A stretch of DNA of 64,000 bases, taken from Nostoc sp. HK-01 (GTDB taxonomy: Bacteria > Cyanobacteriota > Cyanobacteriia > Cyanobacteriales > Nostocaceae). The stretch spans positions 6,063,001 to 6,127,000 of the forward strand of contig AP018318.1 of NCBI GenBank assembly GCA_003990705.1, written 5' to 3'. The notes beneath the pieces are model-generated. The model was given only the letters and a program-made list of their open reading frames with translations. It did no database searches and was not told where the DNA came from. This document shows, one piece after another, positions 2,346 through 19,227 of this stretch (position 1 is its first letter; each line of letters opens with the position of its first letter). Both the position numbers and the translations under genes were made by a program.

Positions 2346-5300
2346 TTACCAAGGATTACCAATCATGGTAAAAGCTGACCAGAAATAGGGATGAGTTAGG
2401 TTTTTGTCTCCGAGTTCTAATAAAACGGGTGGTAGAGGTAAATCACCATGAGACGTTTTCAGTTTACCGTTTTCTAGGCGTACTTCTCCTTTGATCATGG
2501 CTATTTGTGCTTGGCGGAGAGCTTCAGCTTTTATGGGGGCTTGTTTCAGCTTTTCGTAAAACTCGGTCATTAAACTAAATGTACCTTCATCGGAGACATA
2601 CCATAAACTCGCCAATGCAGACTTAGCACCAGCTTGGACTGCAAAGCCAGCAAAACCTAGTTCTGCGTCTTCATCACCCAAGGCTGTGCGACAAGCACTC
2701 AGTACTACTAGTTCTACAGATGGGTTATTCCAGCCAAGTTGGCGCATCTGATCCATTCTCAGTTGGCTATCCCATAATTGAATATAAGAGTTACCGGGCG
2801 CACCTTTTCTAAATTCGCCGTGGGTGGCGAGGTGAACAATTCCGTAGGGCGTTTCTTGTCGTTGAGCTTTAAGATTTTTCAAAGTAAAGGCTTCGTTTAA
2901 AAAAGCTTTACCAGGCCAAATTTTCTCGATAGTAGTTAATTCTGTGGGGACTGCTGGTAATGGGTCTAAATTCATGAATTGAGATGCGCCCATTCCCAAA
3001 ACTTTAGCTTTTTTAATATCGACATATTTGGTGTCTGTCAGGCTGAGACTCGGCATTAAACCGACGCTATAACGTTCTACCAGATATTGTTGACCATCAT
3101 AAAGTGCGGCTACTGGCATAGCGCGTAATCCCGTATCCATGAGAAACACTAAATTATTGATTTCTCGTGTTTTGAGGTTAGATTCAATCGGTGCAATTAG
3201 CCAATTGTATAGTTGTTGAGCCGGCTTGATATAGGTGCGGCGCAGTGCTGGGTCTGTGACTGCACTAGTTAATTGGCGGCTGGCTGTGAGAACTTGCGAT
3301 CGCGTCACATTTGTTAATACTTGCCGAATTGGTTCACCTTTAGCTGTCACCACCACCAATTCTAAAACGTCATTATCTTGACCGATAATAGGTAATTGGG
3401 CAGTGGGTTTGATAGTTGCAGGTACAAAAGAAACGTAAATTAGGGCGGGTTTCGCACCTGTAGAAGATTCAATGTTAGTCAGAATCTCTCGCGCTTCCTT
3501 GATACCCTTAATTGGCTGTTTACCTTCTCCTAAGTATGTTCCTACCTGATCTGTAAACTTCTCATCAATCTTAGAAGAGGGATCTTTGATTAATGTTGGT
3601 GGTGGATCATTTACTATAGGTGGTTTTTCAGGAATTGGATCATCAACATTATGATCAGAAACAACAGTTACATTAACCTGTTGCGGATTTGACTGAGAAA
3701 CGCCATCGCTAGTTCTGACGGTGAAAGCCGGAATGACACCGCTAGAATTCGCTGGTGGTGTATACACTAATACTGTGCTGGAACTCAGCACACTGCCGGA
3801 AGTAACTGGTGTTCCATCTTGGAAAGTTAAACTACCTGATGAAATTGCATCAAAAATTATGGTGAGATTGTCATTATTTACATCACTGGTAATCGGGTTT
3901 AAAGACCCAAATGTAAAGGTTATGGATTGATTTGGAATGCTGGAAAACAGTGAACCTGCTGTAATAGTGGGTGGTGTGTTAATTGAGATAAAACGAGCGC
4001 CATTACCCGCATCTGTAACAGTCCCACCATTGGCTAATACAGGAAAAGAATTAACAGTTGTTGGCGTATCATCTCTAACAATTCTTCCTGCTGTACCATT
4101 AGTAGCAGAGTTACCAACAATAAATGGGACGTTATTTGGCCCACCATCATGTTGAATTGTAATTGAGCCAGATTGAGTGGAACCAGTGGTGTTAATGCTA
4201 TCTATACCACCACCTTCTCCCGGAATCACGCCTATACCTCTAACTAACCCATAAGCCAAAACATTAACATTTCCACCTTGGGCTGTACCTTCTTCGCTCA
4301 AATCAAAACTTTGAGTATTGATACTATTAAAAGTAATGTTATGCCCAAATGTGCCGCTAGTTCCAGCTTGGAGTGTGACTGCACCGGCAACTACATCTCC
4401 AAAACCTGTGGCAGATGTGTCAATATCACCTGTGGTAATGCTATTTCCGGCTGTCAGATTTACTTGACCTGCTGTACCACTATCCTCGTTATTAAATGAT
4501 GTATCAATATCACCTGTGGTAATGCTATCCCCGGCGGTTAATTGCACTCGACCAATAGGGCCACCGTAACCACTAAATGATATGTTTGCTGTAGCATTAA
4601 TATTATTAGTGGTGATGTTGCCTCCTGCTGTCAATTGAACTTGATCAGTAATTACGGGGCCACCGTAACCATTAAATAGTATGTTTCCTGTAACATTAAT
4701 ATTATTAGTGGTGATGTTGCCTCCTGCTATTAATTGGACTTGACCACTATTACCGCCAAAATTATCACTACCCGAAGTCAGAATATCTTGAGTCGTAATA
4801 TTACCTGTTGCACTAATAATTACAGGGCCACCATAATTACTAAATGAAATATCACCTGTGACATTCACATTACCCGGTGAAGATGTGCTGCCTGATGATG
4901 TGAATAAAGATCCGCTGGTAATAAAACTGGAGGGATTACCAGTAGTAACTTCTTGTAAGCTGCTCACACCTGCTCGTAAAATCAATGCTGGCTGACTGCT
5001 CAAAATTTGACCATCAGCAGTAGTACTAGAAAGGGCGGTATCTGCATCAGTAATCACAATTTCGCCAGTCGTGATACTACCACGAGATTCTACTTTTAAA
5101 GATGGGCCAGTATAGTTACCAAAGGTAACATCTTGGTTAGAACTAAAAATGGGGTCAACTAAACTGATGAAATCAGCACCTTGTCCTAAAGAGTTGAGAA
5201 TTGAAAATTTACCACCGCTGGCAAAATGTGAGTCTAAAGAAATATTGCCGTTACTAACTAAAGTCAAATCACCACCACTAACAAATGGTGTTTGAGCTAA

Positions 5301-7163
5301 GTGATTAATTGCAAAAATATCAATGCCTTGATTACCTTGAATTGTGAGTTTATTGCCAGCAGTAGCTGAGAAATTTTTAGCAACACTATCACGAACTCTG
5401 ACGGTATCTTTAGCAAGTAAATTTAAGTTGTTAGTGGCTGAAAGTTGACTTTCGGGTAGTGTTAAATTATTGTTGGCAGCCAGGGTAACATTTTTTCCAG
5501 ATGCTTGATTGACTACCACATCACCATTGCTAACCGTCAAACCAGAACCAGTTAACTTTACCTCGCCATTATTTACCACCAAACCAGAAGCATTCCCAAC
5601 ACCACCACCAGTCAACAATGCTGGTAAAGAAGTCCCTGGCAAATTATTATTAGTTGCATTCAGCGGTTGAATTTCTAAACTTAAAGGATTCCCCGCCATA
5701 CTCAATTTGAGTAAACTACTGCCAGGTACAGCCACAATTGTGACGTTACCATTAGGCGCTGACAAAGTTCCTGTACTGACGACTGTGCCGCCAAATAAAC
5801 TTAAATTATTCCCTGATGGCACTGCCAAATTACCTTGATTGAAAATAGCACTAGCGACACTGCTATCAAAAGCGAAACTATTGGGTGTGCCGATAAGTTG
5901 GCTGTAGTCGTTTGTCCCAACCGCATTTAACCAGTTATGATTACCAAAACCGAGGCGTGTGGCTGTGGTAGCGGTAAATGATGCAGGTACATTTAAACTA
6001 GAATTAGCACTAAAGATAATGCCTGCGGGATTGATTAAATATAAGTTAGAATTCCCGCCACTAACGCGAATGATGCCGTTAATTATTGATGCTTCACCAC
6101 CTGTAACTCTACCTAAGATGTTTTGAATGGATGGTTGCGATAAAAAGTTAGCTGTTTGGTTAGCATCTAGTCCAAATTTGCTGAAGCTATGAAAGAGGTT
6201 GGCTTTGTCGCTACTTAAACTACCACCACTAATATTAATATTGTTACCTTGAGTGTTAACAGTTGTGCCTGTACCATCGTTAGCAGGGGTGATAGTTTGT
6301 TGCGCTTTGACTGTTAGAGGTAGGAGGCATAACAGCAATGCTATGTTGCTTACTGCTAATGTTTTGATAGATTTTGAAAAAGTTTGCTTTTTTGCTTTGG
6401 AAATAGCAGTAAAATTTATCTTGCTGCCAGGAATGAGGGCTTTCTTTTGTAATTCTGGTTTGTGATGCTGTCTGCGTTGTCGTGCTTTGAGAATTGCTAG
6501 TTGGGAGTTTTTGATTTGCTCTTGTCTGCGTTGCTGTGATATCGTTTCGGGATGGGTGCGGTAGTAGTATAAGGGCTGATAGATATGCTCTACTTCCGCA
6601 ACTTCTGAAAGTCGCAAACACAAATCATAATCTTGTGCTGTTGCCAGTGCTTCGTCAATTCCTCCGGCTAATTCCAACACTTCGCGGCGAATTAGCCGAA
6701 AATGAAATGTCATAAACCGATTTAACAGTGCTTCACGGCTATAAGGTACCAGACAGCGATAGCCATAACTGAGAATTGTATTGTTTTCGTCAATGTCTAA
6801 ATAGTCGGTGTAAACCCAGCCGATATTGGGTTTAGCATCTAATACTGCTGCTGTTTGGGCTAGAGCAGTGGGGGCGAGTAAATCATCACTATCTAGCCAA
6901 CCAATATATTTACCATGAGTCTCGGCGATCGCATCTTTTAAAGCTCTAGTAAATCCCAGATTATCTTGGCTGGCTATTACCCGCACGCGGCGATCGCACT
7001 CTTCATACTCACGGGCAATTGCTAGAGAATTATCTGTGGAACCATCATCCCAAATCAGCAGTTCAAAGTCTTGCCGGGTTTGCGATAAAACACTTTCTAT
7101 AGCTAATCTGAGATAATTTTCTCGATTGTAAACTGTGATGATTAAGGAAATTACTGGCAGCAT
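2346..7163 (-). CDS. Fusion: family 2 glycosyltransferase - internal signal peptide - FHA/TPS secretion domain - repeats - CHAT protease
   Basis: One uninterrupted frame of 1605 codons. Residues 1-235 are a complete GT-A glycosyltransferase family 2 domain (LIITVYNRENY, DDGS, DSDD, AQDYDL). Near residues 265-286 lies a Sec signal-like stretch (KTLAVSNIALLLCLLPLTVKA) with an AxA-type end. After it comes a two-partner-secretion, filamentous hemagglutinin N-terminal domain (about 290-410; NPAGIIFSANSSLNVPASF), then beta-helix-like repeats including several copies of a QLTAGGNITTNNIN-type unit (about 780-920), a cadherin-like stretch, a proline-rich linker, and a C-terminal CHAT domain with its His-Cys pair (HLATHGEF near His1446; LSACRTALGD near Cys1490). 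FHA-CHAT proteins are known in cyanobacteria; the in-frame glycosyltransferase is odd. No ATG, GTG or TTG is seen just before the signal peptide, so separate translation would need a rare start. No TpsB transporter gene is in the window. Confidence 0.8.
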   Translation of the reverse strand: MLPVISLIITVYNRENYLRLAIESVLSQTRQDFELLIWDDGSTDNSLAIAREYEECDRRVRVIASQDNLGFTRALKDAIAETHGKYIGWLDSDDLLAPTALAQTAAVLDAKPNIGWVYTDYLDIDENNTILSYGYRCLVPYSREALLNRFMTFHFRLIRREVLELAGGIDEALATAQDYDLCLRLSEVAEVEHIYQPLYYYRTHPETISQQRRQEQIKNSQLAILKARQRRQHHKPELQKKALIPGSKINFTAISKAKKQTFSKSIKTLAVSNIALLLCLLPLTVKAQQTITPANDGTGTTVNTQGNNINISGGSLSSDKANLFHSFSKFGLDANQTANFLSQPSIQNILGRVTGGEASIINGIIRVSGGNSNLYLINPAGIIFSANSSLNVPASFTATTATRLGFGNHNWLNAVGTNDYSQLIGTPNSFAFDSSVASAIFNQGNLAVPSGNNLSLFGGTVVSTGTLSAPNGNVTIVAVPGSSLLKLSMAGNPLSLEIQPLNATNNNLPGTSLPALLTGGGVGNASGLVVNNGEVKLTGSGLTVSNGDVVVNQASGKNVTLAANNNLTLPESQLSATNNLNLLAKDTVRVRDSVAKNFSATAGNKLTIQGNQGIDIFAINHLAQTPFVSGGDLTLVSNGNISLDSHFASGGKFSILNSLGQGADFISLVDPIFSSNQDVTFGNYTGPSLKVESRGSITTGEIVITDADTALSSTTADGQILSSQPALILRAGVSSLQEVTTGNPSSFITSGSLFTSSGSTSSPGNVNVTGDISFSNYGGPVIISATGNITTQDILTSGSDNFGGNSGQVQLIAGGNITTNNINVTGNILFNGYGGPVITDQVQLTAGGNITTNNINATANISFSGYGGPIGRVQLTAGDSITTGDIDTSFNNEDSGTAGQVNLTAGNSITTGDIDTSATGFGDVVAGAVTLQAGTSGTFGHNITFNSINTQSFDLSEEGTAQGGNVNVLAYGLVRGIGVIPGEGGGIDSINTTGSTQSGSITIQHDGGPNNVPFIVGNSATNGTAGRIVRDDTPTTVNSFPVLANGGTVTDAGNGARFISINTPPTITAGSLFSSIPNQSITFTFGSLNPITSDVNNDNLTIIFDAISSGSLTFQDGTPVTSGSVLSSSTVLVYTPPANSSGVIPAFTVRTSDGVSQSNPQQVNVTVVSDHNVDDPIPEKPPIVNDPPPTLIKDPSSKIDEKFTDQVGTYLGEGKQPIKGIKEAREILTNIESSTGAKPALIYVSFVPATIKPTAQLPIIGQDNDVLELVVVTAKGEPIRQVLTNVTRSQVLTASRQLTSAVTDPALRRTYIKPAQQLYNWLIAPIESNLKTREINNLVFLMDTGLRAMPVAALYDGQQYLVERYSVGLMPSLSLTDTKYVDIKKAKVLGMGASQFMNLDPLPAVPTELTTIEKIWPGKAFLNEAFTLKNLKAQRQETPYGIVHLATHGEFRKGAPGNSYIQLWDSQLRMDQMRQLGWNNPSVELVVLSACRTALGDEDAELGFAGFAVQAGAKSALASLWYVSDEGTFSLMTEFYEKLKQAPIKAEALRQAQIAMIKGEVRLENGKLKTSHGDLPLPPVLLELGDKNLTHPYFWSAFTMIGNPW

Positions 7164-7390
7164 AAAAATTAGATTTTTTTAATTTATTTATAGAGAGCTT
7201 AAAGTTTTTAGTTATCTTTTGGATCAATAGAATATACATTAACTTATTAAGTTGCCTATAATGAAAAAAATTTGAATTTTCTTCTAATTCAGGATGTTAA
7301 TTTTTGCGAATGTTTGCAAAATTGACTCGTTATAGATGTATTTGCTAAAGTTAATGCCAAGTTAAATATTATTGACAAAGTTTAAAAAAT

Positions 7391-9172
7391 ATGAAATATT
7401 TTTGTGCTACTGCCAAGTCAAGACGAAGACAAGCTATTAATAACGGGTTGAGGAAATCAGCCAAATCCAGCGGTATTGTTGGGGGACTAACGGCGATTTT
7501 TTTATTAGCAAATTCGTTAGTCCCAACAACTTTGTTTGCTGAAGAAAAATTAGAAATCAAAGACTTTGACTACTGGGCAAATTTTTGTAAGTTGTTGGGA
7601 GAGGAAAAGAAATATGATGAAGCGATCGTCGCTTGTAATCAAGGAATTGCCATTAAGCCAGACGAACCAGAAATTTGGGTAACGCGCACAGAAATTTTAC
7701 TCAAGCAAGCCAAGTATAGTGAAGCGTTAGTATCATCTGATCGCACCTTACGTCTCCAACCAAAATATTCTTTAGCCTTGGCTCAACGATGTGAAGCATT
7801 ATTAAATTTAAACAAATATGCCGAAGCGATCGCTGCCTGTGATTTAGCGCTGCGTTCTGATGGCAACTGGGGCAGTACTACAGCAGTTGTGGCATGGTAC
7901 AATCGTGGTCTAGGAGAAAGTAAATTAGGACAACTAGACGCAGCGATCGCCTCATTTAATCGCGCCTTAGAAATTACTCCTGAGAATTCATTAGCTTTAG
8001 TCGGCAATTGTCAAGCATTAGCAAATTTAAACAGGTTCAGCGAAGCGATCGCAGCTTGCGACTCAGCAATTAAAGTTAATCAAAATTGGGGTGATACTAC
8101 GCCAGCAATTGCTTGGTACACTAAGGGCCTGGCACAGAAAAAAAATGGTCAATTAGAAGAAGCGATCGCCTCTTTTGATCAAGCAGTGGCGATGAATCCG
8201 AAAGATGCAGATATTTGGTTAGAACATGGTAGAGCATTAGCAGCAATCAGTAAACCAGAACAAGCTGTCGTTTCATACCAATTTGCCATCAAACTCAGTC
8301 CTAATTATGCCTTAGCCTTAGCCAGTCAAAGTGCGAGTTTGAACAAAATAGGTAAATTTCCAGAAGCACAAGCAGCCGCAGAACAAGCACTACAAGGCGA
8401 TAGCCGTTGGGGTGATATCAGTCCCGCCTTAGCTTGGGAACAGAGAGGAATCGCTTTAGCTGGATTAGGCAATTACGAAGAAGGATTAGCATCAATAGAA
8501 AGAGCGATCGCTCTCAATCCCAATTATGCAGAAGCATGGAATAATCGTGCTGCTACCCAATGGTATTTAGGCAGATATGCCGATGCAATTGCTAGTAGTG
8601 ATCGCGCCACCGAAATTAATCCGAAATATGCTCAAGCATGGTTTAATAAAGGCAGAATTCTCAAAACCTTAGACCGCTATTCAGCATCACTCGCAGCATA
8701 TAATAAAGCATTAGAAAATGTGGGCAAATTTGCCGATAAATCACTCTTAGCTAATATTTGGGCTAACCGGAGTGTTGTCTTGTGGCATTTATCCCGTAAT
8801 CAAGAAGCCTTAGTGTCTGTAGATAAAGCGATCGGCATTAACCCTAATTTATCGCAAGGATGGTACAACCGCGGCATCGTACTATTTAATTTAGCCAGAT
8901 ATGATGAGGCGATTAATGCTTACAACCAAGCTAGTACTTTGGCTCCAATGGATGCGAATATTTTAGCTGGTAAAGGAGTTGCCTTATTGAGATTGGGCAA
9001 ATTAGAAGACGCTGTAAAAACTTTTATGGCTACCTTAGCACTTGATCCTAAAAACGCATTAGCATTAGCAAATCAAACAATTGCTCAACAAAAATTAGAC
9101 GCACAAAAAGAACAACAAAAACTCAAATCACCAGTAATGCCAGATAGCACTACAATGCGTCAGGGTTCATAA
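7391..9172 (+). CDS. Exported TPR-repeat protein
   Basis: 593 residues. A basic start is followed by a hydrophobic segment (GLTAIFLLANSLVPTTLFA), read as a signal peptide ending near residue 50. The rest is about a dozen tetratricopeptide repeats (for example RYDEAINAYNQASTLAPMDA), ending in a charged Lys/Gln-rich tail. A larger unit recurs three times: a linker of the NWGSTTAVVAWYNRGL / NWGDTTPAIAWYTKGL / RWGDISPALAWEQRGI type, so the array grew by duplicating blocks of about three repeats. TPR arrays bind proteins; no enzyme domain is visible. It is divergent from the CHAT fusion across a 227-bp AT-rich gap, which may hold a shared promoter region. No strong ribosome binding site precedes the ATG. 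Confidence 0.8.
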   Translation: MKYFCATAKSRRRQAINNGLRKSAKSSGIVGGLTAIFLLANSLVPTTLFAEEKLEIKDFDYWANFCKLLGEEKKYDEAIVACNQGIAIKPDEPEIWVTRTEILLKQAKYSEALVSSDRTLRLQPKYSLALAQRCEALLNLNKYAEAIAACDLALRSDGNWGSTTAVVAWYNRGLGESKLGQLDAAIASFNRALEITPENSLALVGNCQALANLNRFSEAIAACDSAIKVNQNWGDTTPAIAWYTKGLAQKKNGQLEEAIASFDQAVAMNPKDADIWLEHGRALAAISKPEQAVVSYQFAIKLSPNYALALASQSASLNKIGKFPEAQAAAEQALQGDSRWGDISPALAWEQRGIALAGLGNYEEGLASIERAIALNPNYAEAWNNRAATQWYLGRYADAIASSDRATEINPKYAQAWFNKGRILKTLDRYSASLAAYNKALENVGKFADKSLLANIWANRSVVLWHLSRNQEALVSVDKAIGINPNLSQGWYNRGIVLFNLARYDEAINAYNQASTLAPMDANILAGKGVALLRLGKLEDAVKTFMATLALDPKNALALANQTIAQQKLDAQKEQQKLKSPVMPDSTTMRQGS

Positions 9173-15724: not shown

Positions 15725-16402
15725 CTACACTAAACCCGATCGCAGTGCAACTACAGCAGCTTGAACACGATCATCAACTGCTAATTTGTTCATAATCCCG
15801 CGTACATGGGTTTTGACGGTGTTGGGACTGAGATAAAGTCTTTCGGCGATTTCTGGGTTACTCAAACCGTCTACCATCAGTTTTAAAACTTCTAACTCTC
15901 TTGTGGATAAGTTAGCAGTGTTTCCCGGCGTTGTGGGAGGTTTGAGGTTGTCAATTACTCGTCTGGCGATTTGCGGATCTAAATAGGTCGCACCATCAAC
16001 AGCAGCTGCGATCGCCTTTAATAATCTTTCTACACTCGCACCTTTGATACAATAAGCGTCTGCACCACTTGATAATGCAGCAATCACTTCAGTCTCGGTG
16101 GTGTGGGATGTCAACATCACGACATGAGTGTCTGGTAATGCGGCTTTAATTTGCTGTGTGGCTGCAATTCCATCCAGACGCGGTAAACCAATATCCATGA
16201 CTACCAAATCTGGCTTTAATTTTAAGGCGGCTTGCACGCCTAAATAACCATCTTCTGCTTGACCAACAATTTCTAACTGGGGTTGCGCCATTAATGACTG
16301 TTCTAGTCCCAGTTGCATCATTGGGTCATCTTCCACAATCAACACCCGCAAAACAGGTGTATCAGTCGGTAGATTCAAGGGATGGCTAGAATTGATAGAC
16401 AT
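15725..16402 (-). CDS. NarL/FixJ-type response regulator
   Basis: 225 residues. The receiver domain (18-135) has the acidic pair EDD (24-26), phosphoacceptor Asp70 in VVMDIGLP, Thr/Ser in MLTS and the conserved Lys in YCIKGAS. The C-terminal LuxR helix-turn-helix (about 160-225) has LSTRELEVLKLMVDGLSN and SPNTVKTHVRGIMNKL. It is a DNA-binding regulator activated by phosphorylation. It resembles the widely conserved cyanobacterial/plastid Rre1 (Ycf29) type, but I cannot prove orthology. No cognate kinase is immediately adjacent. Confidence 0.88.
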   Translation of the reverse strand: MSINSSHPLNLPTDTPVLRVLIVEDDPMMQLGLEQSLMAQPQLEIVGQAEDGYLGVQAALKLKPDLVVMDIGLPRLDGIAATQQIKAALPDTHVVMLTSHTTETEVIAALSSGADAYCIKGASVERLLKAIAAAVDGATYLDPQIARRVIDNLKPPTTPGNTANLSTRELEVLKLMVDGLSNPEIAERLYLSPNTVKTHVRGIMNKLAVDDRVQAAVVALRSGLV

Positions 16403-16412
16403 TTTTTTATAT

Positions 16413-16487
16413 AGTCAAGAGTCAAGGGTCAAGAGTCAACAGTCAACAGTCCAATAACTTTTGACTTTTGACTTTTGACTCTTGACT
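16413..16487. repeat. Heptamer repeats in inverted arrangement (AGTCAAG / CTTGACT)
   Basis: About five copies of AGTCAAG-like units (16413-16451) face four copies of the complement TTTTGACT-like units (16459-16487). The block can fold into a long hairpin between era and the response regulator gene. Confidence 0.75.
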
Positions 16488-16494
16488 AACTTCT

Positions 16495-17451
16495 CTATTC
16501 TTCCACGCGATAGCCAAACTCTGCCAAACTTAAGCGAGACTGTCGCCATTTTGGCTGGACTTTGACGAAAAGTTCCAGGTATACTTTGCCAGAGATGAGT
16601 TTTTGAATTTGTTCGCGGGCTGCACTACCAACGGCTTTGAGCATCGAGCCACCTTTACCAATTAAAATACCTTTTTGGGAATCACGCTCGACGTGAATGG
16701 TGGCGAGGACGCGGGTAATAGTTGCTGTTTCTTCTACTTTATCAATAGCGATCGCTACAGAATGTGGTACTTCTTCACGGGTTAATAACAAAATTTGTTC
16801 CCGAATTAATTCGCCCATAATAAACCGTTCTGGTTGGTCAGTTACCAAGTCAGGCGGATAATATAAAGGGCCAGTTTCTAAATTATCAATGAGTAATTGT
16901 TGCAGTTCGGGCAATCCTGTACCAGTCTTGGCGGAAATTTTGACTGTCGGCCATTGATTAGCTTCACCTAACTGCTGGTAACTTTCATCGATAAACTGGG
17001 AATTCTCTTGTTGTTGGTCGGTTTTATTCAGTCCCAAAATTACGGGTGTGTGGATGTTAATCAGTAACTCAGCAATATAGCGATCACCAGCACCACAAGC
17101 TGCTGTACTATCGACTACAAACAGCACCACATCTACTGATTCAATAGCCAGTTTGGCATTCCGTACCAATACTTCCCCCAATTGATGGTGGGGTTTATGA
17201 ATTCCCGGTGTATCGACGAAAATTATCTGTGCTTCTGTTGTTGTTAAAATTCCGCGCAAACGGTTACGTGTCGTTTGTGCTACTGGTGATGTAATAGCAA
17301 TTTTTTGACCTACTAATTGATTCATCAAAGTAGATTTACCGACATTTGGACGACCAATAATGCCGATAAACCCCGATTTGTATTCAGGAGGAGCTTGAGG
17401 AATTAATACTTCTCCTGAAAAAGAGAAGACGTGATTATCAATACTAGTCAC
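16495..17451 (-). CDS. era: GTPase Era, 16S rRNA maturation and 30S assembly
   Basis: 318 residues. The GTPase domain has G1 GRPNVGKS (33-40), G3 DTPGIHKPHH, G4 NKTD and G5 SAKTG; the C-terminal KH domain carries GILIGKGGSMLKAVGSAARE, which binds the 3' end of 16S rRNA. An N-terminal extension of ~25 residues precedes the usual family start, so a later start is possible. Single gene. Confidence 0.95.
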   Translation of the reverse strand: MTSIDNHVFSFSGEVLIPQAPPEYKSGFIGIIGRPNVGKSTLMNQLVGQKIAITSPVAQTTRNRLRGILTTTEAQIIFVDTPGIHKPHHQLGEVLVRNAKLAIESVDVVLFVVDSTAACGAGDRYIAELLINIHTPVILGLNKTDQQQENSQFIDESYQQLGEANQWPTVKISAKTGTGLPELQQLLIDNLETGPLYYPPDLVTDQPERFIMGELIREQILLLTREEVPHSVAIAIDKVEETATITRVLATIHVERDSQKGILIGKGGSMLKAVGSAAREQIQKLISGKVYLELFVKVQPKWRQSRLSLAEFGYRVEE

Positions 17452-17768
17452 CTTTTACTCCACCTTCATATTTTATAGATGAGATAAGTTAGTTCTGGGT
17501 TCAAACGCACAACAAACATATATTCACCCTGGAATTTTCGGGGTTTGTCATTGTTTCAGTTTAATCTACTACTAGAGATATTTGGCTACAAATATCTTAA
17601 AAATAGATGTTAAGAGCTAACAAACATCATGTTATCTCTCTTATATACAGTTGTGTTACATTGAAGCAGAGACTGTTATTTTTATGACAATCTTCTTTTA
17701 TTCTGAGTTGAAAATTAAATTTTTACCTTGCTGAAGATTTAAAACATCCTCTTATATTTTTTGATAAT
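17452..17768. other. 317-bp AT-rich gap, no gene seen
   Basis: Lies between era and the M48-like gene, both on the minus strand. I see no ORF, tRNA or strong hairpin; it probably holds the era promoter. Confidence 0.5.
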
Positions 17769-18674
17769 TTACCAAGAAGACATAAATTGCCAATCTTCAG
17801 AATCTGTCGCTGGAGGTTCTGCAAAATTTTCTATTTGCTCTAAATTTTCTGCTTGCATTAACTTGTCATATTCTCCAGAATCAACCCATTTCAACAATTC
17901 ACAAGCTCGCATCACAGACCAAGGAAAGCGGTATTCCATAAAACTTAATATCTTCGTGATTTGATCCAAATTATCAAGACTAATAGTCGAAAATTCTCGC
18001 GCTTGAGCTTGAAAATCAGCAATAGTCTCTGCATTGAAATATTCAGATGGTAAACCTGCTAATTTCATCAGTGCAGTGATGGCAATATTAATATCTTGAC
18101 ATGCTAATAAACCCACGCGATCGCCAGTGAATTTTGACATTATCATCCAATTAGCTAAAGCTATTTCTATTCCACCAGCCGCCAAGCCTCCCAAACCAAA
18201 AGTTGTACTGTTAATGACATTTTTTAACAGTGGCATAACATTTGCCATTTGCTGATAAGCAATATATTTACCTTTAATGCGGGCAACTTCACACCCAAAG
18301 GCAAACAATAATTCGTCGTGTGAATACCATTCCATCGCTTCCAAATTCGCACTGACCATTGGGTTTTCCACACCAACAGCATTGGTTTGAATATGTCCTG
18401 TACCACGAAATAAGTAAAGTTCTGGCTTTGGTGTTAGGTCAAGAATTTGGCAACTTTCTGTAAACGCATCATCTAATTTGGGAAAATTTTGCGGTGTTAC
18501 ACGAAATTCACCACCAATAATTTGCATTCTGAGTAAACGGTCAATGCCATACTCATTCACCTTTTTCAACAATAAAGGCAACCCTGGCATTTTATTCAAA
18601 TTAGCTAAGGCTTTTTGATCAAAGGGATGCTGAAATTTAACTATGTTGAGACCAGGAAATACTCTTCTTGTCAT
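17769..18674 (-). CDS. M48-family protein with lost HExxH zinc motif
   Basis: 301 residues resembling cyanobacterial M48 (Ste24/HtpX-like) peptidases: the N-terminal QKALANLNKMPGLPLLLKKV, the pre-motif region NPMVSANLEAM, and the helix following the active site. Where the family has a DELxxVLGHELGH-type zinc helix, this protein reads DELLFAFGCEVARIKGKY, so both zinc His residues are replaced (Cys and Arg) while the Glu remains. Peptidase activity by the usual mechanism is therefore unlikely. A weakly hydrophobic stretch (INSTTFGLGGLAAGGIEIAL) may contact membrane. The C-terminus is acidic. Role unknown. Confidence 0.65.
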   Translation of the reverse strand: MTRRVFPGLNIVKFQHPFDQKALANLNKMPGLPLLLKKVNEYGIDRLLRMQIIGGEFRVTPQNFPKLDDAFTESCQILDLTPKPELYLFRGTGHIQTNAVGVENPMVSANLEAMEWYSHDELLFAFGCEVARIKGKYIAYQQMANVMPLLKNVINSTTFGLGGLAAGGIEIALANWMIMSKFTGDRVGLLACQDINIAITALMKLAGLPSEYFNAETIADFQAQAREFSTISLDNLDQITKILSFMEYRFPWSVMRACELLKWVDSGEYDKLMQAENLEQIENFAEPPATDSEDWQFMSSW

Positions 18675-18709
18675 TATATTTTCATGAGTAATTCGTAATT
18701 AATAAAATT

Positions 18710-18802
18710 TAGGACGTACGCAAAACTAACGTATTTTCGTCATTGCGACCGTAGGGAAGCAATCTCAAGGCCTTTATTTGCGTGGCGAGTGTGTAAGTCC
18801 TG
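18710..18802. mobile_element. Short terminal-inverted-repeat element, 93 bp
   Basis: TAGGACGTACGCA at the left and TGTGTAAGTCCTG at the right are imperfect inverted copies (10 of 13). The interior includes CATTGCGACCGTAGGGAAGC, a sequence style I recall from dispersed cyanobacterial repeats. There is no coding capacity. Confidence 0.55.
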
Positions 18803-18807
18803 AAAAT

Positions 18808-19227
18808 TTATCCTTTTTGGATAAACTGCTTTAAAATCTCTCCTGGCTGTCTATCCCAGGTATCAATATGTTCATATATCAAATTATCTGAGTTAAATTT
18901 ATATGTTGAATAACCATTAAAAAATATCTTGGCTTGCCAAGGTACACGCAATACACCTCTGACTGTCCATTTAGCTAAAATCGTATCTTCTGCTGATTGA
19001 TAAACTTCATGTAAATCAAAGGCGATTTGGCTAAAAAATAATTGAGCGTGAAATCGCAATGTCCAAAAAATAATGCGATAGTTGAATTTATATTTAAATT
19101 TATTTACTGGGTCTTGAAAATAAATATCCTGTGTATATATGTTATATGAAATATCTTTTTCAAAGAGTGTAGGTAAATCTTGTTTGAGAATTTGAATTAC
19201 CTGTTCTATCTGTAAAATGTCAGCCAC
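18808..19227 (-). CDS. DUF2358 family protein
   Basis: 139 residues matching the remembered cyanobacterial/plant DUF2358 pattern: LKQDLPTLFEKDISYNIYTQDIYFQDP near the start, a long central beta region, and HIDTWDR near the end. The fold is expected to be NTF2-like. No catalytic role is known. It sits 12 bp after the stop of the GH10-like gene on the same strand, so the two may share a transcript. Confidence 0.8.
   Translation of the reverse strand: MADILQIEQVIQILKQDLPTLFEKDISYNIYTQDIYFQDPVNKFKYKFNYRIIFWTLRFHAQLFFSQIAFDLHEVYQSAEDTILAKWTVRGVLRVPWQAKIFFNGYSTYKFNSDNLIYEHIDTWDRQPGEILKQFIQKG

Follow-up and report, generated by a model that had tools for sequence, protein, structure and literature searches.

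In Haemophilus influenzae, the cytosolic glycosyltransferase HMW1C glycosylates the two-partner-secretion (TPS) adhesin HMW1 before its Sec export and passage through TpsB (PMC3983070). Set beside this system, a gene in a 64,000-nucleotide stretch of Nostoc sp. HK-01 DNA (hereafter the window) is similar in that a dedicated glycosyltransferase (GT), predicted to be cytosolic by domain order only, appears tied to a TPS exoprotein. Unlike HMW1C, which is a separate GT41 (GT-B) enzyme, the window GT belongs to GT2 (GT-A) and lies on the same chain as the exoprotein, before an internal signal, and unlike HMW1 the exoprotein ends in a CHAT domain. Since the transferase is GT2 rather than GT41 and the passenger carries no sequon signature over unfused proteins, the fused protein is not a member of the HMW1/HMW1C system; the two GT41 loci of the window's genome lie elsewhere than the fused gene.

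Other systems share parts of this arrangement. SAVED-CHAT proteins, the TPR-CHAT protein Csx29 (Craspase) and caspases act inside cells, unlike the window CHAT domain, which is predicted to be exported. PknB-type transmembrane kinases have an N-terminal cytosolic catalytic domain, a single hydrophobic segment and an exported C-terminal part; unlike in these kinases, the hydrophobic segment of the window protein looks cleavable and the exported part looks like a TPS substrate. Chondroitin polymerase from E. coli K4 (2z86/2z87) holds in its GT2 domain at 374-600 the nearest solved structure among the matches listed, but it is a polymerase that has two GT2 stretches and lacks a secreted part. GT-less cyanobacterial TPS-CHAT proteins share with the fused protein its signal, its TPS domain, its passenger and the CHAT domain at the C-terminus, and differ in lacking GT2 and in having an N-terminal signal with its own start. 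No description of the GT2-TPS-CHAT architecture was found in the open-licence literature searched, and the word CHAT was not found in the available portion of PMC3482391.

We interpret the fused gene as a likely variant of two-partner secretion and propose for it a polyprotein model with glycosylation in cis, in which the mechanism of the GT2 step is drawn by analogy. The best overall explanation, with a probability of roughly 0.5, is a one-chain counterpart of HMW1A/HMW1C, that is, a GT in the cytosol linked to the TPS exoprotein that it probably glycosylates. If true, this would be a TPS exoprotein whose modifying enzyme, itself cytosolic, belongs to the same chain, with a signal peptide in mid-frame. 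The gene would then serve as a test case for how bacterial Sec deals with a cleavable signal that lies internally, after a folded enzyme, and as an entry to cyanobacterial surface-protein glycosylation and to the targets of exported CHAT proteases.

Domain architecture of the fused gene

The following features were assigned in the window:

2346..7163, minus strand: whole fused ORF, 1605 aa, GT2-linker-signal-TPS-passenger-CHAT (coordinates, strand and length exact)
6468..7163, minus strand: GT2 domain, residues 1-232, with D39-D40, DSDD 91-94 and D178 (Pfam, conservation, model)
6372..6467, minus strand: linker, residues 233-264, basic, coding and in frame
6303..6371, minus strand: internal Sec-type signal, residues 265-287, with cleavage motif VKA↓QQ (sequence)
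5691..6275, minus strand: TPS secretion domain, residues 297-491 (Pfam, NCBIfam, beta-strand-rich model)
3225..5690, minus strand: passenger, residues 492-1313, S-, T- and N-rich
2355..3224, minus strand: CHAT caspase-like domain, residues 1314-1603, with H1448 (2820-2822) and C1491 (2691-2693)
7164..7390, no strand: 227 bp intergenic region between the two divergent genes
7391..9172, plus strand: divergent TPR protein with a signal-like N-terminus, a recurrent partner gene in the window's group

The original prediction described a single frame joining GT2, a mid-frame Sec signal, a TPS domain and a CHAT His-Cys pair, and profile searches bear it out. Pfam places Glycos_transf_2 (PF00535) at residues 6-164 (112 bits, cut-off 23.3), the TPS secretion domain PF05860 at 297-491 (134 bits, cut-off 33.5) and CHAT PF12770 at 1314-1603 (250 bits, cut-off 24), and NCBIfam places adhes_NPXG at 324-402 (78.5 bits, cut-off 29.1). 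Structure matches were found for the caspase-like fold of CHAT, with H1448 and C1491 as the His-Cys dyad. The hydrophobic core LAVSNIALLLCLL is followed by the small-x-A motif VKA↓QQ just ahead of the TPS domain, a Sec-like arrangement.

An AlphaFold2 model of residues 1-575 (mean pLDDT 77.8, pTM 0.49) is mostly confident over GT2 (1-233), is beta-strand-rich with mostly high pLDDT over residues 290-500, and has low confidence at 237-287, where the linker is probably disordered. All 50 structure matches listed fall on the GT part, with no TPS fold match among them.

The fusion is widespread in cyanobacteria

The original prediction suggested a search for the same architecture in other cyanobacteria, and 68 distinct intact GT2-signal-TPS-CHAT proteins of 1523-3661 aa were collected from several cyanobacterial families. 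In every one of the 68 the GT begins no later than residue 47, and CHAT runs to the last residue in 67; the catalytic His and Cys of CHAT are invariant (68/68), and a hydrophobic core with small-x-A stands at the start of the TPS domain in 66. When 60 relatives were searched with the GT2 part, many close kin were placed in very long frames, in which domain checks found GT2, TPS and CHAT in identical order. Fused rows, some of them cut by contig ends, came from Nostocaceae, Leptolyngbyaceae, Microcoleaceae, Oscillatoriaceae, Coleofasciculaceae, Trichocoleusaceae, Oculatellaceae, Xenococcaceae and unnamed families.

Among genomes drawn from the order, 83 of 388 match the window GT2 at E 1e-50 or better. 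By hand count, 44 matches belong to frames 1000 aa or longer, with two GT41 fusions excluded, and all 23 of these that were domain-checked are GT-TPS-CHAT (the window by Pfam, the others by our own domain profiles). These profiles were built from 11 fused proteins and are thus not independent of those, and the window's own domains rest on Pfam. Across genomes drawn from the phylum, 23 of 386 match the window GT2. The window's genus contributed 11 genomes: eight with an intact fused gene, one with a copy cut by a contig end, one split copy and one with GT2 deleted in frame. Homologues are therefore not always encoded as two genes, an outcome that would have spoken against the original prediction: set against the 68 intact fused proteins, GT2 and TPS in separate but adjacent frames were seen only at L053 and L210 among the loci domain-checked. 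From these sequence comparisons, the GT2-TPS-CHAT fusion is almost certainly a genuine, long-lived protein family.

Close GT2 kin were also seen on contigs labelled as Gemmatimonadetes, Acidobacteriota, Caldilineae and Desulfatitalea MAGs (L174, L175, L177, L235).

Secretion route and gene neighborhood

In 28 of 72 fused rows, a TpsB homologue is encoded divergently within 600 bp, which points to the fused chain being a substrate of TPS. None was found in the 54 non-fused GT2 rows with up to 7 kb examined (49 of the 54 with at least 2 kb upstream). One representative of the divergent TpsB cluster contains ShlB and POTRA_2 by Pfam. The window gene has no adjoining TpsB; its genome, where the original prediction suggested looking for one elsewhere, holds three full matches and one partial match, all far from the fused gene. 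A divergent TPR gene is found within 600 bp in 15 fused rows including the window, as well as at one copy cut by a contig end and at the split copy in genome G005, and it lies downstream in two further fused rows. In 29 of the 72 fused rows, the 600 bp limit turns up neither a divergent TpsB nor a divergent TPR gene; this, like the missing TpsB beside the window gene, counts against the explanation proposed here. Outer neighbors beyond the fused gene and TPR gene differ between genomes. Recurrent neighbor clusters, for which only some representatives were scanned by Pfam, include TpsB, CHASE2, TPR, histidine kinase and C39-ABC exporter proteins.

The part of the protein after the signal is very probably a two-partner-secretion exoprotein that passes through a TpsB (FhaC-like) pore with CHAT at its far end. 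The Sec signal directly precedes the TPS domain but lies at residues 265-287, behind GT2 and not at the N-terminus; this position makes the protein less an ordinary TpsA without lowering the case for export like a TpsA. The fused protein is an unusual TpsA with an internal signal.

We also considered a CdiA-like polymorphic-toxin exoprotein, whose C-terminal domain would differ among close relatives; no such variation was seen: CHAT is in frame in 77 of 79 closed GT+TPS frames, some of which are the same gene counted in two loci, and in the remaining two (L071, L186) a same-strand frame with CHAT follows.

Elsewhere in the window's genome, two TpsB-like genes (L299:1405-6130 and 15819-18999) adjoin CHAT proteins in which the TPS profile found no TPS domain. 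Within the window, positions 1-2091 hold a neighbor of the fused gene with acyl-carrier and thioester-reductase-type domains (Pfam), which we take to resemble the heterocyst-glycolipid genes hglB/hetM; in the relatives compared, the fused gene has a different neighborhood.

What the GT2 domain may modify

Conservation of the GT2 domain is consistent with catalysis, since D91, D93 and D94 are invariant in the 68 fused proteins, D178 is kept in 67, and pN/pS within the genus is 0.21. We presume that these residues are the acidic metal/nucleotide-sugar motif and the catalytic Asp of GT2. The domain models as a GT-A fold, and its nearest solved GT among the matches listed is K4 chondroitin polymerase (34-35% identity, rmsd 2.2-3.3, ~227 columns), whose stretch 374-600 also matches the window GT2 by profile at E 6.7e-57. 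Further solved matches are a Leptospira GT, SpsA, heparosan synthase and a GT deposited as GalT1/CgT (5hea), and a viral structure search gave generic GT2 among the matches listed.

Domain partners of the same GT2 subfamily suggest what it may act on. At L147:2085-6794 and L148:5707-10392 it shares one chain with DUF4915, GNAT, TPR and a GT41 (OGT family) domain (E 6.7e-90 and 4.9e-88), possibly a two-enzyme protein glycosyltransferase. At L066:7174-8877, L070:5137-6882 and L139:9568-11280 its fusion partner is a sulfotransferase, of the Sulfotransfer_4 family once and of the Sulfotransfer_3 family twice. Some standalone kin adjoin large proteins that carry RTX, CARDB, Calx-beta or LamG domains. 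With loci having <3 kb on a side left out, large neighbors occurred at 15/42 standalone GT2 loci versus 2/20 ordinary GT2 control loci (p=0.038); the comparison became 13/40 (p=0.067) without L053 and L210, which are split members of the fused group, and 7/42 versus 1/20 (p=0.26) at 1500 aa, so that the excess is weak. Together, the partners of this subfamily point to sugar transfer connected with exported proteins.

A further GT41 lead, through the 721-aa neighbor of a solo GT2, was dropped: PF13844 scored E 5.7e-4, below cut-off, and members of that neighbor cluster gave two GT2 stretches or a weak methyltransferase plus GT2. The GT41 link now rests only on the L147 and L148 fusions.

In the model we propose, GT2 would fold in the cytosol and the internal signal would insert N-in; signal peptidase I would cut after VKA287, releasing the TPS-CHAT part, and the cut GT2 would stay tethered by the signal to the inner membrane face. 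We infer this sequence of events as a unit and judge it probable. With odds falling slightly short of even, GT2 would act before export, adding or extending sugars on the exoprotein as it passes or on other exported proteins, by analogy with HMW1C acting on HMW1. Being fused, transferase and substrate would always be made 1:1, with the transferase on hand at the point where the substrate crosses the membrane. At the surface, CHAT might process itself or cut a surface or secreted substrate; a candidate partner for it in the window's group is the TPR protein encoded divergently. Taken in full, a polyprotein cut by signal peptidase into a tethered GT and a surface protease-adhesin, glycosylated in cis at 1:1 and widespread in cyanobacteria, is a tentative proposal that we hold to be some way below even odds.

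The subfamily's fusions to GT41 or sulfotransferases, and its standalone copies beside large proteins, favor this glycosylation model, while the nearest solved GTs, which are polysaccharide synthases (chondroitin, heparosan), count against it. Sequon enrichment, tried as a sign of HMW1C-like N-glycosylation, was not found: observed/expected N-x-S/T in the passenger is 1.19 in fused proteins (n=68) versus 1.26 in GT-less TPS-CHAT proteins (n=27), and since it is not raised in the former, such a signature is absent.

In the strongest competing explanation, GT2 makes a non-protein glycan (a capsule or sheath oligosaccharide, or a glycolipid), and the fusion would couple synthesis of this sugar to the delivery of a surface protein that binds or trims the matrix. 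The best structural and profile match is K4 chondroitin polymerase, followed by others including heparosan synthase, and the sulfotransferase fusions in kin would also suit a sulfated polysaccharide. On the other hand, the GT41 fusions of the same subfamily point to protein acceptors, and the scanned neighbor-cluster representatives include no polysaccharide-assembly family, a weak argument as only some representatives were scanned. On balance we find a non-protein product unlikely, though it is the alternative that survives best.

One chain or two products

According to the original prediction, the frame is either translated whole, leaving GT2 in the cytosol while the remainder is exported, or a hidden non-ATG start lies near 6440-6300. 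The sequence evidence largely supports whole translation, which is favored by the 68 fused proteins, the in-frame coding linker and the divergent TpsB homologue at 28 of 72 loci. The hidden start has no sequence support, because a search of the window linker for ATG, GTG and TTG found none upstream of the signal core and, within this core, a single TTG (codon 276).

Separate translation of GT2 and TPS-CHAT by an internal start or re-initiation, with the shared frame incidental, does draw on some observations. Outside the window, the linkers of many fused genes do contain ATG, GTG or TTG codons, and for this reason the case against an internal start is strongest in the window's genus. GT-less TPS-CHAT proteins with their own starts exist, and G005 and L210 hold both parts in separate frames. 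The G005 split, a single-base length difference near codon 228, suggests a sequencing error, because the TPR neighbor of that copy is likewise in two frames.

Against two products, besides the position of the TTG, the linker in the genus is under protein-level purifying selection. Linker plus signal has a pN/pS of 0.44 compared with 0.21 for GT2 and 0.17 for TPS (28 pairs pooled, 8 same-genus sequences), and all eight same-genus linkers and all gaps are multiples of 3, with stops in the other two frames. Across 21 representatives, thinned at 70% GT identity from a set selected for being fused, linkers of 25-246 aa keep one frame. In G003 (L278:2969-7111), of the same genus, most of GT2 is deleted in frame so that its ~33 first residues run into the signal, and the TPS-CHAT part still begins at GT2's own ATG, which would be difficult to explain if that part had an internal start of its own. 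Two separate products are thus improbable, and one continuous chain is preferred.

That GT2 is a non-catalytic N-terminal module of this chain, serving as a membrane tether or as a pacing or chaperone element for export, is a shade less probable again: GT2 can be lost, as in G003 and the unfused paralogues, but this role sits poorly with the near-invariant acidic residues and the low pN/pS of GT2 given above. An assembly or annotation artefact has virtually no chance of explaining the fusion, since, although the two frame breaks in G005 show that such errors occur, the 68 distinct intact copies across many genomes already refute it, and the frameshift or assembly error between codons 230 and 265 that would have undone the original prediction did not materialize, with no stop there and no frame change in the window.

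GT-less relatives and the history of the fusion

Of 94 rows, 26 are TPS-CHAT proteins without a GT, a count that takes in the split copy of G005 and the deletion in G003, and because such proteins are common, GT2 is dispensable for secretion in these kin, a point against the explanation proposed here. In the GT tree (125 rows, with one row cut by a contig end dropped and GT matches of <200 bits or <200 residues left out), the fused label requires 6 changes compared with a shuffled mean of 40.3, and well-supported branches force 2; the fused rows thus form nearly one group, consistent with a single old fusion and later splits or losses. In the 94-row TPS+CHAT tree, fused and unfused proteins are interleaved, with 12 changes, 5 of them forced. 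Since GT-less TPS-CHAT proteins are common and one is a paralogue in the window's own genome, GT2 appears from these trees to have joined early and then to have been lost or re-paired several times. GT distances correlate with TPS and CHAT distances at 0.84 and 0.85 over the 68 proteins and at 0.24 and 0.44 over the 21 representatives, and because of this drop on thinning the correlation does not support long-term joint inheritance.

The own-genome paralogue (L046:1499-5026) is 94% identical to the window protein in TPS and 77% in CHAT, and in several relatives a counterpart of this paralogue follows the fused gene in tandem.

The fusion also misleads annotation. On a plasmid of Calothrix brevissima NIES-22 (L301:8001-8759, AP018208.1), a standalone GT2 of only 252 aa carries the deposited name 'filamentous hemagglutinin outer membrane protein', a label probably copied from a fused relative. 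Two genes away is a 'polymorphic membrane protein' of ~10,400 aa, and two other plasmid records carry the same hemagglutinin label under a GT2 match.
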